NCBI GenBank assembly: GCA_019119365.1
Contig: DWXD01000010.1
Coordinates: forward strand, 1-41,335
Reading direction: 5' to 3'
Length of the DNA: 41,335 nt
Origin: Candidatus Gemmiger stercoripullorum
GTDB taxonomy: Bacteria > Bacillota > Clostridia > Oscillospirales > Ruminococcaceae
In this document: positions 20,488-27,209 of the stretch, piece by piece
Layout: each line of letters begins with the position of its first letter
How positions within the stretch are numbered: the stretch's first letter is position 1
Notes under the pieces: generated by a model
Databases searched by the model: none
Seen by the model: the letters and a program-made list of their open reading frames with translations, nothing else
What the model was told of the DNA's origin: nothing
Position numbers and translations under genes: made by a program

Positions 20488-21762
20488 ATGAAAAAACATC
20501 TTGCCGTTTTGTGCCTGACTGCCGTGCTGGCGGCCGCCTTGCTGCTGGCAGGCTGCGGAAAAAAGCCGGAAGCGGCCGGCGCCGCAGCCGGAACGCCGCC
20601 CACGGCAGCGACGCCGTCCCCAGCGCCGCTGCCGCTGCGGGTGCTGCAGCCGTACAACAGCCGCGCCTGGTATGTGAAAAAAATCGATATGGAGCAGGAC
20701 AAGTGGGTGCTGCACCGGTATGATTTCGCATCCGCCGCTGTCTCGGTCCTGCCGCTGCCGCGGGCGAATGAATACCCGGTCGTGCTGGCAGACGGACAGG
20801 ACCTCTACGCCTTTTATATGGGCGGGGCGATGGCCGGGGCCGCCGTCTACCGCGGCGACCCCGATACCGCCGCATGGGACTGCCTGCTCGCGCTGCCCGA
20901 AGGAAATTACATTGACGCGCAGGACCCGGTCGCCTCCGATGGCCAGGCCCTCTATTTCGGCTATTGTACCGTCTCTTCCGACCCACACGCCGTTGACCCG
21001 GTCCAGCTTGTACGCTTTGATCTCGCCACCCGCGAGCTGACAACGCTGACAGACTGGGAAGGACCGTTCCGCGGCCGCCTGTACGGTGTCTGGCAGGAAC
21101 GGGGCAAGCTGCTGTATACCCGCCGTGTGCTGGCCGAAAACTGCCCGGTTGAGCCGGAAATCGGGTGTTATAAAGTCGAAAACACGCAGGAACTTGCGCC
21201 GTGGCTGGCGACCGTCCTCTATGCGTTTGACCCCCAAACCGGCGAAACGGCCGAGCTGCTGCGCGAGGAAGGGGCGGTCCCGACCCTGACCTGGCAGCTG
21301 TTTGCGGACACGCTGTACCGCACGGTCCCGCAGCACGACGGCGGCGCCGCCCTGCAGTGGCGCGCCCTTGGCGCGGACACGGCCGGGGAGAAGGCGTTGG
21401 ATGTGCCGGTCAGCCTCAGCGCCGTTTATGCGGAAGACATCTTCCTTTTCGGCGCGCCGGAAGGGAAGGATACGCTCTATGTCTGCGACCGCGCGGCCGG
21501 TACGCTGACCCCCAGCCCGCTGCGCTGCCTGCGCAAGGGGGAGGACAGCTGCATTGACGTGGTTTGCCCGGCCGGGCCGGGGGAGTATCTTGTCGTCCGC
21601 GACCGCACGATCCGCGAGGAACTGCGCCGCGGCATGACCGAATGGGATTTTTACACGGCGACCGTCTATCCCGAAGAATACGAGATCATATCCCGCGCCG
21701 GTCTGCTTGACGAAACGATCCCCGGCCGCCCGCTCACCCAGCCGGAGGGGTGGTATAACTGA
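20488..21762 (+). CDS. Lipoprotein of unknown function
   Basis: 424 residues with a clear lipoprotein signal: MKKHLAVLCL, a hydrophobic core and LLAGC with the lipidated Cys23. A Pro/Ala/Thr linker follows (to about residue 50). The mature part is beta-rich with repeated aromatic and Asp/Gly patterns (for example DGQDLYAFY, DGQALYFGY, RLYGVWQERGKLLYT), which looks like a six-to-eight-bladed propeller or other beta-repeat fold, but I do not recognise a family. It should be anchored outside the membrane. ATG 20488 is preceded by AGGGAGG. It lies 75 bases behind tmcAL and may be cotranscribed. An intrinsic terminator follows. Confidence 0.85.
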   Translation: MKKHLAVLCLTAVLAAALLLAGCGKKPEAAGAAAGTPPTAATPSPAPLPLRVLQPYNSRAWYVKKIDMEQDKWVLHRYDFASAAVSVLPLPRANEYPVVLADGQDLYAFYMGGAMAGAAVYRGDPDTAAWDCLLALPEGNYIDAQDPVASDGQALYFGYCTVSSDPHAVDPVQLVRFDLATRELTTLTDWEGPFRGRLYGVWQERGKLLYTRRVLAENCPVEPEIGCYKVENTQELAPWLATVLYAFDPQTGETAELLREEGAVPTLTWQLFADTLYRTVPQHDGGAALQWRALGADTAGEKALDVPVSLSAVYAEDIFLFGAPEGKDTLYVCDRAAGTLTPSPLRCLRKGEDSCIDVVCPAGPGEYLVVRDRTIREELRRGMTEWDFYTATVYPEEYEIISRAGLLDETIPGRPLTQPEGWYN

Positions 21763-21809
21763 ACTGCCCGCCATAGAAGGCACACCTGTAAAGCAAAAAC
21801 ACTATACAC

Positions 21810-21848
21810 AAAAGCTGCCGTTCCCAAGCAGGGGACCGGCAGCTTTTT
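21810..21848 (+). terminator. Intrinsic terminator of the lipoprotein gene
   Basis: AAAAGCTGCCG (21810-21820) pairs with CGGCAGCTTTT (21837-21847), and TCCC/GGGGA can pair inside the loop; the 3' side ends in five T residues. Confidence 0.9.
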
Positions 21849-21863
21849 GCGTGCGGGCAGAGC

Positions 21864-21924
21864 GGATACAGTTTGGATGCAGTACGGATACATCTTGGAT
21901 ACGGCTCGGATGCGCCCCGGATAC
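21864..21924 (+). repeat. Array A: six GGATRC direct repeats with exact 11-bp period
   Basis: GGATAC or GGATGC occurs at 21864, 21875, 21886, 21897, 21908 and 21919, each 11 bases apart, i.e. one helical turn, so all copies face the same side of the helix. The order is AC, GC, AC, AC, GC, AC: two AC-GC-AC triplets. The five bases between copies vary. The last copy starts 16 bases before TATCCT (21935-21940), a plausible -10 preceded by TGT. This is the layout of an OmpR/PhoB-type activator site; it lies between the preceding terminator and the GT-C-like gene. Confidence 0.85.
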
Positions 21925-21934
21925 AAAAACCTGT

Positions 21935-21940
21935 TATCCT
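21935..21940 (+). promoter_or_regulatory. Putative -10 element behind array A
   Basis: TATCCT, four of six consensus bases, in the context GTTATCCT. There is no recognisable -35 at 17 bases; the last array repeats occupy that position, as in activator-dependent promoters. The start codon is about 55 bases further on. Confidence 0.5.
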
Positions 21941-21995
21941 TCGTAACAAAGCGCCGCTTTCCTGCGGGATGCGGGGAGCAGCAAGGAGGAAACAG

Positions 21996-24080
21996 ATGAA
22001 TACGGCGGCAATGTGTACTGTACGCCCGGTGTGCGCAAGGCCCAGGCGGGGGCAGTGGGCTCCGGCCTGCACAATCCTGCTGCTTGCCGGGTATCTTGCC
22101 GTTGCGGTGATCTGCGGCGCGGACCTGCTGGCCATGCCGCGTTTTTTCCTGGCGGCGGTGTTCTGGCTGTGCCTGCCGGGGCGAACACTGGCGGCGGCGC
22201 TGGCCCCGCGCCATGCGCCGCGCGGTGTGTATGCGGCGGTGTATGGCTGCGGGCTGCTTGCGGCGGTACAGTGCGTTTCGGCCCGGTTGGGGGCTTACTG
22301 GCTGCTGTTTTTGCTGCCGCCTGTGGTTGGGTTGGCTGGCTGTGTGCGGCGTCCGCTGCCCTGGCGTCAGGCGCGGCGGCGTCTGGTATTCTGGCTCGGC
22401 CACCCGCGCGTGATGCTGTGGGCCGGGCTGTGCCTGGCGTATGTGCTGGGGTGCAGCGCTGTCAACCCGCACCCGCAGCAGGCCGGGGCGGCGGTGCTGG
22501 ACCGCGACTTTTTGTGGAACATTGGCAATGCGGCGGCGCTGGCCCGCCATTTTCCGGCAGAGGATATGCGGTTTTCCGGCGTGCGGCTGGCGTACCACTA
22601 TCTGACCGAACTGCTGTCTGCGGCGCTGGCCCGGGTCAGCGCTGCGCCGCTGTATGACGTCTATTTTGTGTTCGCCGGGCCGGTTTTCCTTTTTGGGGAA
22701 CTGCTGGCCCTGCGGGCGCTGGCCCGCTGCTGCTGGCCGGGGAACCGCAGGGCGGAACGCCGTGTGCTGGCGCTTGTGTTCGGCTTTTCCTGCGCGACGA
22801 TGTGGAAAGTGCTGTGGGACGGGCAAAGCCTGTTCGGCAATACGCTGCTTGCGCATCTTGTCACCAATGTCAACGCGCAGGCGACGGCACTGCCGTTTTT
22901 GGCCGGGACGTTCTGCGCCTTTGCCGCGCTCATGCGCGGCAAAGGCCGGGGCGGCTGGCGGTGGTGGTGGGCGCTGTTTGTCTCCTTTGCGTTGCTTTGC
23001 GTCGCCAAGGGGCCGCAGGCCGCGCTGCTCTTGTGCGGCGTGGCGGCGGCGCTGGCGCTGCTGGTTCTGCTGCGCCGTGTGCGGTTTCTGCCCGCGCTTG
23101 GCTGCCTGGCGGGGATGGGTGCGATCTTCGCGGCGCTCTATCGCTTTTTGTACGCGGCCGGGGTCGGCAGTATGGAGTTTTCCATCTTTGCCATGCAGGA
23201 GACGGTCGTCTACCGCCTGTTCAGCCCGCTGACCGACCGGCTCTGCGCGCTGCTGCCCGGCAGCGGATATTTCTGGCTGATAGCCATCGGCGTATGCAAT
23301 GTATTTTGCATGCTGCCGTTTCAGTGCGTTCTCTGCCTGTACGCGCTGCCTGCGGCCCTGCGGGGGCTGCTTCGGCCGGACCCGGCCCGGCTGCTGGCCG
23401 CGGCGCTCGCGGGCGGCGGCATGCTGGCTTACCATCTTTTCAGCCACACAAGCTCGAGCCAGATCTATTTTGCGCTGTTGGCGATGCTCTGCCTTTCGCT
23501 GCTGGCAGTGGGGGCGCTGGATTATCTGCCGCCCTGCCTGCCGGGGCGTATCCCTGCCATCCTGGCCGGCGCGGCCGCGGCGCTGACGACCCTCTGCCTG
23601 GCGGTCAGCGTTGCTGTGCAGGCGGCCGCGCCGCTTGGCGCCTGCCTGGGGCCGGCTGCGCCGCCTGCCGGTGTGAGCGGTTCGGGTACGCTTGTCACCG
23701 CGGCCGACGAGGAAGCCATGCGCTGGCTGGCGGACAACAGCGCGCCGGACGATGTCTTCGCCACCAACCGCACCTCCGGCACACCGGAAATGATCGACGC
23801 GATCAGCAACGTCTACACGGCTTTCAGCGGGCGGCAGGCTTATCTCGAAGGCTGGACCTACGCCATGACCAATATGGGCGTCGACCCGGATACGCTCGGC
23901 CGGCAGTGGTGGATCAACGACCAGCTCACCGGCGGAACGCTCCCGGCGGCCGAAGCCCGTGAGCTGGCCGCGCAGGAAGGCGTCGCCTGGCTGGTGCTGG
24001 CCAAAGATTGGCCCGGCGCGCCGCCCACAGGCATGACCCCGGCCTACGAGAATGAAGACGTCGCGATCTACCGCTTTTGA
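21996..24080 (+). CDS. Polytopic membrane protein, probable GT-C-type glycosyltransferase
   Basis: 694 residues with about a dozen or more hydrophobic helices up to residue 550, then an extracytoplasmic C-terminal domain of about 130 residues (DEEAMRWLADNSAPDDVFATN to the end). The TADEEAMRWLxxN..pddV.atn pattern after many helices is what one sees in GT-C enzymes that use polyprenyl-phosphate sugars, and in YfhO-like proteins; I infer transfer of a sugar on the outer face. An acidic motif in the first outside loop (LDRDFLWN, about residue 167) could be the catalytic Asp region. ATG 21996 is fixed by AAGGAGG seven bases upstream. Its promoter is preceded by repeat array A. Confidence 0.75.
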   Translation: MNTAAMCTVRPVCARPRRGQWAPACTILLLAGYLAVAVICGADLLAMPRFFLAAVFWLCLPGRTLAAALAPRHAPRGVYAAVYGCGLLAAVQCVSARLGAYWLLFLLPPVVGLAGCVRRPLPWRQARRRLVFWLGHPRVMLWAGLCLAYVLGCSAVNPHPQQAGAAVLDRDFLWNIGNAAALARHFPAEDMRFSGVRLAYHYLTELLSAALARVSAAPLYDVYFVFAGPVFLFGELLALRALARCCWPGNRRAERRVLALVFGFSCATMWKVLWDGQSLFGNTLLAHLVTNVNAQATALPFLAGTFCAFAALMRGKGRGGWRWWWALFVSFALLCVAKGPQAALLLCGVAAALALLVLLRRVRFLPALGCLAGMGAIFAALYRFLYAAGVGSMEFSIFAMQETVVYRLFSPLTDRLCALLPGSGYFWLIAIGVCNVFCMLPFQCVLCLYALPAALRGLLRPDPARLLAAALAGGGMLAYHLFSHTSSSQIYFALLAMLCLSLLAVGALDYLPPCLPGRIPAILAGAAAALTTLCLAVSVAVQAAAPLGACLGPAAPPAGVSGSGTLVTAADEEAMRWLADNSAPDDVFATNRTSGTPEMIDAISNVYTAFSGRQAYLEGWTYAMTNMGVDPDTLGRQWWINDQLTGGTLPAAEARELAAQEGVAWLVLAKDWPGAPPTGMTPAYENEDVAIYRF

Positions 24081-24095
24081 TGACTTTTACAACAG

Positions 24096-24134
24096 CGATA
24101 CAGCTTGGATACAACTTGGATGCGTCTGGGATAC
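24096..24134 (+). repeat. Array B: four GGATRC direct repeats with exact 11-bp period
   Basis: CGATAC at 24096, GGATAC at 24107, GGATGC at 24118 and GGATAC at 24129, all 11 bases apart; a degenerate TTTTAC fits the same phase at 24085. The last three copies repeat the AC-GC-AC order seen in array A. The last copy starts 16 bases before TATTTT (24145-24150), the same distance as in array A. It lies between the GT-C-like gene and the GT2-GtrA gene. Confidence 0.82.
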
Positions 24135-24144
24135 AAGGCTCGGT

Positions 24145-24150
24145 TATTTT
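24145..24150 (+). promoter_or_regulatory. Putative -10 element behind array B
   Basis: TATTTT in the context GGTTATTTT, at the same distance from the last repeat as TATCCT in array A. Shared context: GGATACAA, eight variable bases ending in GTTAT. About 40 bases before the start codon. Confidence 0.45.
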
Positions 24151-24189
24151 GGTATCAACCGATGACTCTGCAAAACGAAAGGGGTAACC

Positions 24190-25290
24190 ATGGACAAGCA
24201 ACAGGCCGTGGCCATTGTGATCCCGGCGCTGAACCCCGGGCCGTTGCTGCTCGACCAGCTGCGCCAGCTGCAGCAGGGCGGGCTGACAGCCATTGTTGTC
24301 GTTGATGACGGCAGCGCGGAGGCAGCACAGCCGGTCTTTACCCGCGCGCACGGCATGGGGGTGACGGTGCTGCATCATGCCGTCAATCTTGGCAAAGGGG
24401 CGGCACTCAAAACAGGTTTTGCGCACTGCCTGCGCAGTTGGCCGGAATTGATTGGCTGTGTTACGGCGGATGCCGACGGGCAGCACACCGTGCGGGATAT
24501 CCTGCGCATGGCCGCGGCGCTGCGCGGCTGTCCGGGGGCGCTGTGGCTTGGCGTGCGGAATTTCTCTGCCCCGAACGTCCCGCTGCGCAGCCGCTGGGGC
24601 AACTGCCTGAGTGCGGCGGCGCTGCGTCTGGGCGGTGTCAAGGTACAGGACAGCCAAACGGGTCTGCGCGCTATCCCGGCTGCGCTGCTACCGCTGCTTA
24701 TGCGCCTGCCGGGTTCACGGTATGAATACGAGACCACGATGCTGCTGGCTGCCCGGCGTGCAGGTTGGCCGTTGGAAGAGCTGGAGATCGAGACCGTCTA
24801 CACGGACGGCAATCGCGGTTCGCATTTCCATCCGCTGCGCGACAGCCTGCGTGTCATTGGCGTGCTGCTGCACGGCATAAGCAGTATGGCGGTACGCTTC
24901 GCCGCGTCTTCGCTGGCATCGGCGGGGGTGGACCTTGGCCTGTTTGCTTTGCTTGCACCGCGGCTGGCTCCGTGTGGCGGCTGGCGGATGGCAGCTGTGG
25001 CGCTGGGGGTGCGTGTTGCGTCGGCGGGGGTCAATTTTGTCCTTAACCGCACACTCGTTTTTGGCGTTCGTCGCGCCGTTGCACGCCCGGCTGTGCGCTA
25101 TGCGCTGCTGTGCGCCGGTCAAGCGGCCGCCAGCGCCGGGCTGACGTCGATACTGTATGCGGTTGTGCAATGGCCGGCCGTTGGTTGCAAAGCGCTTGTG
25201 GACGGGGCGCTGTTTATTATCAGCTTCTTCCTGCAGCAGCGTTGGGTCTTCCGTGTGCCTGCCGTGCGAGAGGAGGAAGCGAACATATGA
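24190..25290 (+). CDS. GT2 glycosyltransferase fused to GtrA-type flippase domain
   Basis: 366 residues. Residues 5-230 are a family 2 glycosyltransferase of the dolichyl/undecaprenyl-phosphate type: VIPALNPG, VVVDDGS, NLGKGAALKTGF and TADADGQH with the DxD aspartates 94 and 96. Residues about 233-358 hold four membrane helices of the GtrA family (VRFAASSLASAGVDLGLF; FVLNRTLVFG; SFFLQQRWVF), which is thought to flip or present the lipid-linked sugar. The enzyme should charge undecaprenyl phosphate with a sugar inside the cell and help move it outside, to be used by the flanking membrane glycosyltransferases. It overlaps the next gene by four bases (ATGA). Transcription probably starts behind array B. 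Confidence 0.92.
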   Translation: MDKQQAVAIVIPALNPGPLLLDQLRQLQQGGLTAIVVVDDGSAEAAQPVFTRAHGMGVTVLHHAVNLGKGAALKTGFAHCLRSWPELIGCVTADADGQHTVRDILRMAAALRGCPGALWLGVRNFSAPNVPLRSRWGNCLSAAALRLGGVKVQDSQTGLRAIPAALLPLLMRLPGSRYEYETTMLLAARRAGWPLEELEIETVYTDGNRGSHFHPLRDSLRVIGVLLHGISSMAVRFAASSLASAGVDLGLFALLAPRLAPCGGWRMAAVALGVRVASAGVNFVLNRTLVFGVRRAVARPAVRYALLCAGQAAASAGLTSILYAVVQWPAVGCKALVDGALFIISFFLQQRWVFRVPAVREEEANI

Positions 25291-27209
25291 GCGCACTGTT
25301 TCTTTTTTTGCTGTTGATGCCTGCTGCGGCTGGGGTCTGTGCCTGGCTTGGCTGCCGCATGGAAGAAGGAATTCTGCTTTCTGTGCTGGGGCTGATCACG
25401 GCCGGGTATATTCTGGTATTGAGTGGGGGAGTGCTATGGCTGGGCCTGTTGCCGTGGGTGGCGGCGGCCGCAGGCGGTGCTCTGGCGCTACAACGTTTTA
25501 GTAAAAATGCAGAGGACTGGCGTGCGCTGGCACAGGGGATGCTACTGTTTTTTGCTTTTTCGATGCTGTATTGGTGGCTGTGCTGCGGACGCAGTTTCTG
25601 CGATTGGGACGATTTCTCCCACTGGGGCCGGGCGGCTAAGTGGATGTTCACGACGAATACAATGTACACGTCGCCGGATTCCGGCGACGCTTTCAAGTCT
25701 TATCCGCCTGCAACAGCTGTCTGGCAGGTGATGCTGCTCAAGGCAGGGCGGTTTGGCTTCCGGGAAGATATCGTCCTCTTTGGCAATGCGCTGCTCACGG
25801 CCGCTTTGTCGGTAATGCCGTTTCGCTGCGTGGGGATGTGGCAACGGCCGTTTGGCGTGGCGGTGACGGCGTTTCTCGCCGCCTTTGTGCCGCTGATTGT
25901 CTACCCGACTTATTTCGCCCGTGCCAGCGTTGACGGTTTGCTTGGCGTGTTCTGCGCGGCGCTGCTGGTCTCGGCGTTCGCGCCGGGGCGCAGCGCAGCC
26001 ACGCCGGTGTGCGAGGCGTTCGGCTGCTTCGTGCTCGCGCTTGTCAAATCGTCCGGCACTGGGCTGGCAATGCTGGCGGCGCTTGTGTTACTGGCGGCGC
26101 GCCTGGGCGGTGTGAGACATCGGCAGGGAAAGGCGCGCATGGCTGCGCTGGTATGCGCCTTGGCCCCGCTGGCTGCCACAGGCATCGCCAAGTTGAGCTG
26201 GACGCTTCATTTGGCGCAGGCAGGGGTGGCCGAGCGCTGGCAGGGCGAAAACCCGCTGCGCAACCTATGGAGTCTGATCATTGGCAACATCCCGGATTGG
26301 CGCGGCGTTACGCTGACAAACTTTATTGCAACGATCTTCACGCAGGGCAACTACGGCGCGGCGCGCACGCTTCCATTCTTTGCCTGGCCTCTCGCGTTCT
26401 GTGTGTTGGAGGCGGGGGCGGTATGTCTGGCGCGGCGGGATAGATTCGGCGCCCAGCTGCGTGCACTGCCGTTGACCGCCGCAACGCTGGGGATAACGGT
26501 GGCGTTTACGGCTTCACTCTTGTATACATATCTCTTTCTGTTTGAACCGGCCGAGGCTGTTATACTTGCTTCGCTCTACCGATATCTCGATAGCTGTGTA
26601 CTGCTGCTTGCGCAGGTGGCTGTCTTTGCGGTGGGGTTAAGCGCTTGCCGTGCTGCGCCGCGGTGGCAGGCGGCCCCAGCAGCTGTCGCACTGGCATGGG
26701 CGTTTCTGTTCCCGTTCGGGTACAGCGTGCAGGCAGTGGTTGAAGCGCCGTTGCTTGCGGCCGAATCCGGCGCGGACCGCGTACTCTCCCGCCATGCGGC
26801 TGCACGCATCCGCGCGCTTGGCGTCGAGGACCCGCGCCTCTGGCTCATCACGGCAAACGACGGCGGCGCGGCTCAGCAGCGCATAGAGTTTGACCTTTTG
26901 CCCGTCACGCTGCCGCCGCAGGCGACGATTCTGATGGCCGACGCCACTGGTGTTTTGTGGGCGAGGCAGATCACACCGGAGGCGTGGAGCCGCGAGCTTG
27001 CCGAAGACTACGACTATGTATATATCTACTGCCCCGAGGACCAGTTTGTGCGCGACTTTCTCGAAGTGTTCGAGACTGGCAGCCAGAGCGAGGTGGTCGC
27101 CGACCGCATGTTTGAAGTGGTCCCCCAACCTGATGGGAACGCCCGCCTGCGTTGTCTCGACGCCCCCGACGCCGGGGAACTCGTGCCGGTACCGGGGGAG
27201 GGCAAATAA
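25287..27209 (+). CDS. Polytopic membrane protein, possible GT-C-type glycosyltransferase
   Basis: 640 residues with about a dozen hydrophobic helices to residue 500 and an extracytoplasmic C-terminal domain of about 140 residues (ESGADRVLSRHAAARIRALG onward). An early outside loop reads CDWDDFSHWGRAAKWMF with clustered aspartates and aromatic residues, like the acidic catalytic loop of GT-C enzymes such as PMT/ArnT relatives; YTSPDSGDAFKSYPPATAVWQ follows. I do not recognise a named family. It is translationally coupled to the GT2-GtrA gene, so it probably uses that enzyme's lipid-linked sugar. Codon use is slightly less G/C-ending than in the flanks, a weak hint of separate ancestry. ATG 25287 follows GAGGAGG. 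Confidence 0.72.
   Translation: MSALFLFLLLMPAAAGVCAWLGCRMEEGILLSVLGLITAGYILVLSGGVLWLGLLPWVAAAAGGALALQRFSKNAEDWRALAQGMLLFFAFSMLYWWLCCGRSFCDWDDFSHWGRAAKWMFTTNTMYTSPDSGDAFKSYPPATAVWQVMLLKAGRFGFREDIVLFGNALLTAALSVMPFRCVGMWQRPFGVAVTAFLAAFVPLIVYPTYFARASVDGLLGVFCAALLVSAFAPGRSAATPVCEAFGCFVLALVKSSGTGLAMLAALVLLAARLGGVRHRQGKARMAALVCALAPLAATGIAKLSWTLHLAQAGVAERWQGENPLRNLWSLIIGNIPDWRGVTLTNFIATIFTQGNYGAARTLPFFAWPLAFCVLEAGAVCLARRDRFGAQLRALPLTAATLGITVAFTASLLYTYLFLFEPAEAVILASLYRYLDSCVLLLAQVAVFAVGLSACRAAPRWQAAPAAVALAWAFLFPFGYSVQAVVEAPLLAAESGADRVLSRHAAARIRALGVEDPRLWLITANDGGAAQQRIEFDLLPVTLPPQATILMADATGVLWARQITPEAWSRELAEDYDYVYIYCPEDQFVRDFLEVFETGSQSEVVADRMFEVVPQPDGNARLRCLDAPDAGELVPVPGEGK

Follow-up and report, generated by a model that had tools for sequence, protein, structure and literature searches.

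Two repeat arrays in a membrane glycan locus

The window, by which we mean the whole 41,335-nt stretch of DNA analysed here, is contig C45 of a Candidatus Gemmiger stercoripullorum genome (G000; 2.2 Mb in 70 contigs, 90% complete). It carries a gene for a large membrane protein followed by a gene for a glycosyltransferase fused to a membrane domain and a gene for a second large membrane protein, and arrays of hexamers repeated at 11-bp steps precede the first and the second of these genes (Table 1). A preliminary description of the sequence had called this a glycosylation locus. That name is firm for the GT2–GtrA protein, whose paired domains are those of a membrane glycan synthase, but the other two, both membrane proteins, match no family. 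A PDB search by sequence matched none of the three proteins, and on the question of a GT-C fold neither large membrane protein had a Pfam, NCBIfam or PDB sequence match. Homologues of the 640-residue protein (51–52% identical) lie behind the GT2–GtrA gene in G007 and G024.

Table 1 Features of the locus, in window coordinates
Feature	Position	Strand	Basis or remark
Terminator-like hairpin and T-tract behind upstream gene	21810..21848	+	by eye
Array A, six GGATRC units at 11-bp steps	21864..21924	+	sequence reading, unit scoring
−10-like TATCCT, TG at −15/−14 (TGtTATCCT)	21935..21940	+	by eye
694-aa membrane protein, 13 hydrophobic segments	21996..24080	+	behind array A; no family match
Array B, TTTTACAA, CGATAC, GGATAC, GGATGC, GGATAC at 11-bp steps	24085..24134	+	sequence reading, learned motif
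−10-like TATTTT	24145..24150	+	by eye, consensus scan
GT2 glycosyltransferase fused to GtrA/DPMS membrane domain	24190..25290	+	Pfam PF00535 (3.6e-10), PF04138 (6.4e-11)
640-aa membrane protein, 12 hydrophobic segments, 4-nt overlap with GT2–GtrA gene	25287..27209	+	no match by Pfam or PDB sequence search

Array A consists, as first described, of six exact copies of GGATRC, with starts at 21864, 21875, 21886, 21897, 21908 and 21919. Array B, in the 109-bp gap separating two same-strand genes, had been credited with four; because the copy at 24096 reads CGATAC, three are exact, and a motif derived from other genomes adds a fifth unit at 24085. The remaining details of the preliminary description hold: both arrays end in the order GGATAC-GGATGC-GGATAC, the last copy of each begins exactly 16 bases before the TAT inside a GTTAT (21935 and 24145), and the spacer bases differ while the hexamers are kept. 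The last copy reads GGATACAA in both arrays and, in unit scoring of array A, is perfect, next to a weak fifth unit (GGATGCGC at 21908, 4 of 7). Self-match at lag 11 is 0.62 in array A and 0.58 in array B, with lag 22 about equal, and does not exceed 0.38 at the remaining lags from 5 to 24. The pair GGATRC-N5-GGATRC occurs seven times in the window, always inside the arrays, compared with a mean of 0.06 and a maximum of 1 in 100 dinucleotide shuffles.

Each array holds a fixed place next to a −10-like hexamer, in the place of a −35. The −35 positions at 17-nt spacing read GCGCCC for the array A promoter and GCGTCT for that of array B, neither of them −35-like, and a consensus scan of 21700–24250 found no sigma-70 hexamer pair. 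Array A lies downstream of the hairpin seen by eye, which is absent from the forward-strand list of a terminator scan; a short inner stem is listed on the reverse strand (21831–21815). A weak terminator-like stem of 5 pairs with a T-rich tail (24126–24143) overlaps the last unit of array B and its −10. In the 90% complete genome of the organism, the exact three-copy pattern matches nowhere but in arrays A and B, and the same is true when a TAT is added and up to 3 mismatches are allowed; three-copy arrays stand in promoters only.

A response regulator gene carries the same box

The 11-bp repeats had been taken to indicate an OmpR/PhoB-type regulator, for which no candidate was seen. None is encoded in the window, but one lies on contig C21 of the same genome, and its promoter supports the inferred regulator type. 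A scan for arrays with one mismatch matched 5 of 396 family genomes, and in two of them (G286 and G383) the match, a three-unit array, stands directly before the gene of a related response regulator, with a kinase gene next in G286. Among the 19 matches to PF00486 (Trans_reg_C) in the Gemmiger genome, the closest to the G286 regulator (65.3% over 219 residues) is a 219-residue OmpR/PhoB-type response regulator (G000:C21:5360–6016), behind which lies a gene for a kinase with HAMP, HisKA and HATPase_c domains. The helix RTLDLHIQRLRKKL is common to the C21 regulator and its relative in G286, the one read. Between the C21 regulator and kinase genes, whose G286 counterparts overlap, lie about 840 bp (L290:6020–6862) that contain no obvious gene and appear rich in repeated GC-rich words.

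In the C21 promoter, GGATACAACGCCGATACAATGCGGGGGTATACT begins 57 bp before the start of the regulator gene, and the box, GGATAC-N5-CGATAC-N10-TATACT, has the step and the −10 distance of the arrays. A pattern written after this promoter had been seen, SGATAC-N5-SGATAC-N10-TATNNT, matches the genome 22 times at up to 3 mismatches, compared with 15 times for the reversed pattern; the sole match without mismatch is the C21 promoter, the sole matches with one mismatch are arrays A and B, and two of the 19 others are further registers of the arrays. The link between this Trans_reg_C protein and the arrays is one of shared motif rather than of binding. The C21 regulator passes no NCBIfam cut-off among the 25 of 108 matches listed (PhoB 182.9 bits against 296.2, MtrA 182.7 against 300, YycF 145.5 against 340), and in the PDB it is closest to MtrA and RegX3.

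The same one-mismatch scan also matched G170, apparently by chance, and G069, a distant family member, in which AGATAC-GGATAC-GGATAC-N10-TATAAT (L172, minus strand, about 9065; G069:C63:14035–14075) has the same geometry and a perfect −10 and precedes an open reading frame resembling that of a secreted protein.

The box is kept before orthologues of the regulator

A search of 73 genomes for orthologues of the regulator led to 28 loci (own included, 67–100% identical) whose upstream sequence was read. The typical orthologue box is TGTTACAA-N3-SGATACAA-N8-TATNNT. Scored leave-own-out, 25 of the 28 loci have a box of at least 12 bits, a value reached by 0.18% of shuffles; related species in this count are not independent, and near-identical boxes remain in each leave-own-out matrix. 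Below that value, L230 (11.6 bits) and L241 (8.4) have the box geometry and L243 (5.3) has it by eye alone. No clear box was seen by eye before the G044 regulator (61%). Two orthologues, L242 and L243 (G016 and G005), have a recognition helix changed to LRTVDTHIARLRKKL, with half-sites changed to GTCACAA/GGAAACAA and ACACAA/GTAACAA, which looks like a joint change of regulator and box.

A matrix was made from 14 of the orthologue promoters, hand-picked from the 28 for the clarity of their box, with the Gemmiger genome itself contributing none. Its six highest scores in the window, 14.4, 14.1, 11.8, 11.8, 11.6 and 8.3 bits, all fall in the arrays, and the next is 6.9, in line with the early remark that the motif precedes no other gene of the window. 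The best site is an upstream pair of array B (24085), and the pairs adjoining the −10 score 14.1 in array A and 11.8 in array B. Because 9 of 300 shuffled windows contain a site of at least 14 bits, one array alone is weak evidence by the matrix. The exact three-copy pattern is absent from 119 other genomes, 34 of them of the genus; exact patterns miss arrays elsewhere because the half-site differs between species.

Boxes across the genus outline a probable envelope regulon

With up to 2 mismatches, the pattern KNTACAAN4GATACAAN8TATNNT has 98 matches in 31 of 35 genus genomes (5 when reversed), 16 of them without mismatch and 28 with one (44 together, by hand count). Controls in which either distance was lengthened by one base gave 20 matches for a 12-bp step (reversed 10) and 26 for a −10 one base further away (reversed 6), none of them with 0–1 mismatch. 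The good matches depend on the 11-bp step and on the exact −10 distance, as expected of the direct repeats of an OmpR/PhoB-type operator. Boxes with 0–1 mismatch beyond the regulator's own occur in 14 of the 26 genomes with an orthologue (identity at least 75%, G032 partial) and in 0 of 9 others (Fisher 0.004; hand counts, phylogeny ignored), and some of these boxes may belong to paralogues. The Gemmiger genome itself counts there as one without a further box, because its arrays need more mismatches.

In the 19 stretches whose downstream genes were read, the boxes are followed by genes for lipoprotein-like proteins (by eye), an M23 peptidase, Amidase_3 proteins, the regulator itself, a DUF6056 protein as second gene and, judged by eye, a beta-lactamase-like enzyme together with ABC components. 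On contig C56 of the Gemmiger genome, an Amidase_3 gene has a 23.3-bit box that outranks both arrays among the fetched stretches; the regulon, or a sister regulon, would thus include a murein hydrolase. The half-sites of that box (L289, minus strand, 9054; G000:C56:22022–22054) read GAAACAA/GACACAA.

Boxes also precede homologues of the window's own genes in some species. Homologues of the 694-residue protein are present in 15 other genus genomes, and in seven of these a box-like pair was seen by eye upstream, strong in G014 (23.8 bits) and G030 (14.0) and weaker or diverged in G011, G015, G007, G024 and G025; the homologues in G032, G027, G028, G018, G017, G033, G008 and G023 have no upstream box. 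Before the GT2–GtrA homologues of G007 and G024, a three-unit array lies about 160–190 bp ahead of the homology start, the exact −10 spacing being absent, and the other three of five genus homologues (G012, G019 and G030, partial) have no upstream match of at least 7 bits. Box-like arrays before homologues of both glycan genes, in some other species if not in all, again support a regulator of the inferred type. In G007 and G024 these two homologues are on separate contigs, so shared control there would be no by-product of neighbourhood. The pairs before the 694-residue homologues of G015, G024 and G007 (L303, L304 and L305) have drifted to TGCNRCAT half-sites and still keep the 11-bp step and the −10 distance.

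The number of units varies between sites. Two is the number at most sites read: of 39 distinct sites with 0–1 mismatch, 36 have no further unit, L218 has one weak unit, and two sites in G011 (L265 and L282) have about four units each. The window has five and six, although array lengths can be compared only loosely, since the same unit rule puts the GGATGC units of array A (21908) and array B (24118) below threshold.

The same mechanism could have a paralogue of the subfamily as its main reader (C44, C26 or C9), or several could share the sites, which we think rather unlikely. Identity to the G286 regulator is 62–63% for C44 and C26 and 51% for C9, compared with 65% for C21; a box-like pair, TGTAAC-N5-CGATAC, was seen by eye before C9, the own promoter of C26 scores 11.8 bits, level with the −10-adjacent pair of array B, and in several species an amidase gene with a related box lies about 6–7 kb from a paralogue gene. 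However, the half-sites of both arrays end GGATACAA like the C21 promoter, whereas the C26 half-site is GGAAACAA; C44, the paralogue of the same genome whose recognition helix was read, has RTLDTH in place of RTLDLH; and the C21 promoter alone matched the consensus perfectly. We consider the C21 regulator a reasonably good candidate for the main reader of the arrays on this comparison of sequences.

Comparison with known systems

The architecture itself is already known from ArcA, PhoB/PhoP and WalR, and the arrays appear to fit the plan of ArcA, PHO and PhoP sites, including a weak GGATGC beside a perfect last unit; the candidate regulator and the outline of its targets are the new part. Passages of PMC3798270 describe Escherichia coli ArcA sites as direct repeats, two to five in number, whose centres are mostly 11 bp apart, with cooperative binding and a per-repeat conservation that falls as repeat number rises. 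The window resembles this in having weak GGATGC units beside perfect ones, but with six and five units, another half-site, another regulator and an envelope-type set of targets, whereas ArcA is a global redox regulator.

PHO boxes, as portions of PMC4415409 and PMC3348028 describe them, are 11-nt direct repeat units that vary in number and order and overlap the −35. Our arrays share these properties, but the C21 regulator scores below the PhoB cut-off and no phosphate genes are among the targets read. At phoA, too, the last unit is 10 bp from the −10. Mycobacterium tuberculosis PhoP, in an excerpt of PMC4832192, binds as a cooperative dimer to 7-bp direct repeats with a 4-bp spacer.

In sections of PMC9210968 and PMC4168254, the WalR/VicR box of Bacillota is TGTWAH-N5-TGTWAH (TGTWAHA-N4-TGTWAHA for Streptococcus mutans VicR) and its targets are envelope and murein-hydrolase genes. 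The 11-bp step, the kind of target described there and the very similar half-site of the orthologue promoters (TGTTACA-N4-SGATACA) make this a close relative in plan. However, the window's units are GGATRC and the orthologue promoters match the WalR box in the first half-site only, the C21 regulator lies well short of the YycF cut-off, and its gene carries the box itself, whereas wal operons are reported in a section of PMC9210968 as not autoregulated. SARP- and MerR-type sites were also considered and set aside. A search of the open-licence PMC literature by guessed genus names found no description of such a system.

Discussion

Very probably (we would put it at about 0.9, judging from motif and geometry), the arrays are the operator of a regulator of this subfamily. 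Taken together, the sequences suggest that these tandem sites probably serve a two-component regulator that controls envelope genes and its own expression and acts as an activator. Once phosphorylated, the regulator would form a head-to-tail row of dimers along one helix face at 11-bp steps; the unit adjoining the −10 would make up for the lack of a −35, and the additional units, some of them weak, would contribute cooperative binding. By these two features together, the promoters with a −10 at 21935 and at 24145 would be switched in concert with the gene of the regulator itself. The controlled genes would make or modify an envelope glycan, as part of a wider envelope regulon.

ArcA, whose sites are similar arrays, is mainly a repressor. 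Bound dimers might likewise cover the window's promoters and repress them, an arrangement found at many ArcA sites: no more than 10 bp separate the last unit from the −10, each array covers the −35 region, and the ArcA sites in the passages of PMC3798270 share the 11-bp step. We think repression unlikely, since neither promoter has a recognisable −35, so that an activator would be needed more than a block, and PhoB sites overlapping the −35 activate, according to a portion of PMC3348028. Activation by the regulator is the likely mode.

Many unrelated public genomes, too, contain three GGATRC at 11-bp steps (at least 120 stretches, many of them simple, near-uniform tandem repeats, with a TAT at the right distance flagged in none of the foreign matches listed), and a scan for this plain pattern is of little use without the −10. 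It is nevertheless highly improbable that the window's arrays are only a minisatellite of the ordinary kind, grown by slippage and without any part in regulation: their spacers differ while the hexamers stay, both end at equal distance from a −10, in their own genome they are found in promoters only, and their geometry is found again before the regulator gene and before its orthologues.

Paralogous, autoregulated regulator–kinase pairs of this genus may even have split one WalR-like box into several near-identical envelope regulons, with unit number as a dial, an idea that we hold tentatively and consider somewhat doubtful. If it were true, these regulons would cover lipoproteins, amidases, M23 peptidases and membrane glycan proteins, and repeat number would set how switch-like each promoter is. 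For this organism, an oddity of sequence becomes a testable regulon in which one two-component system would control two glycan units as well as its own promoter. The coexistence, seemingly under one regulator, of two-unit promoters with others of five and six units would suit the study of how repeat number shapes an OmpR-type response.
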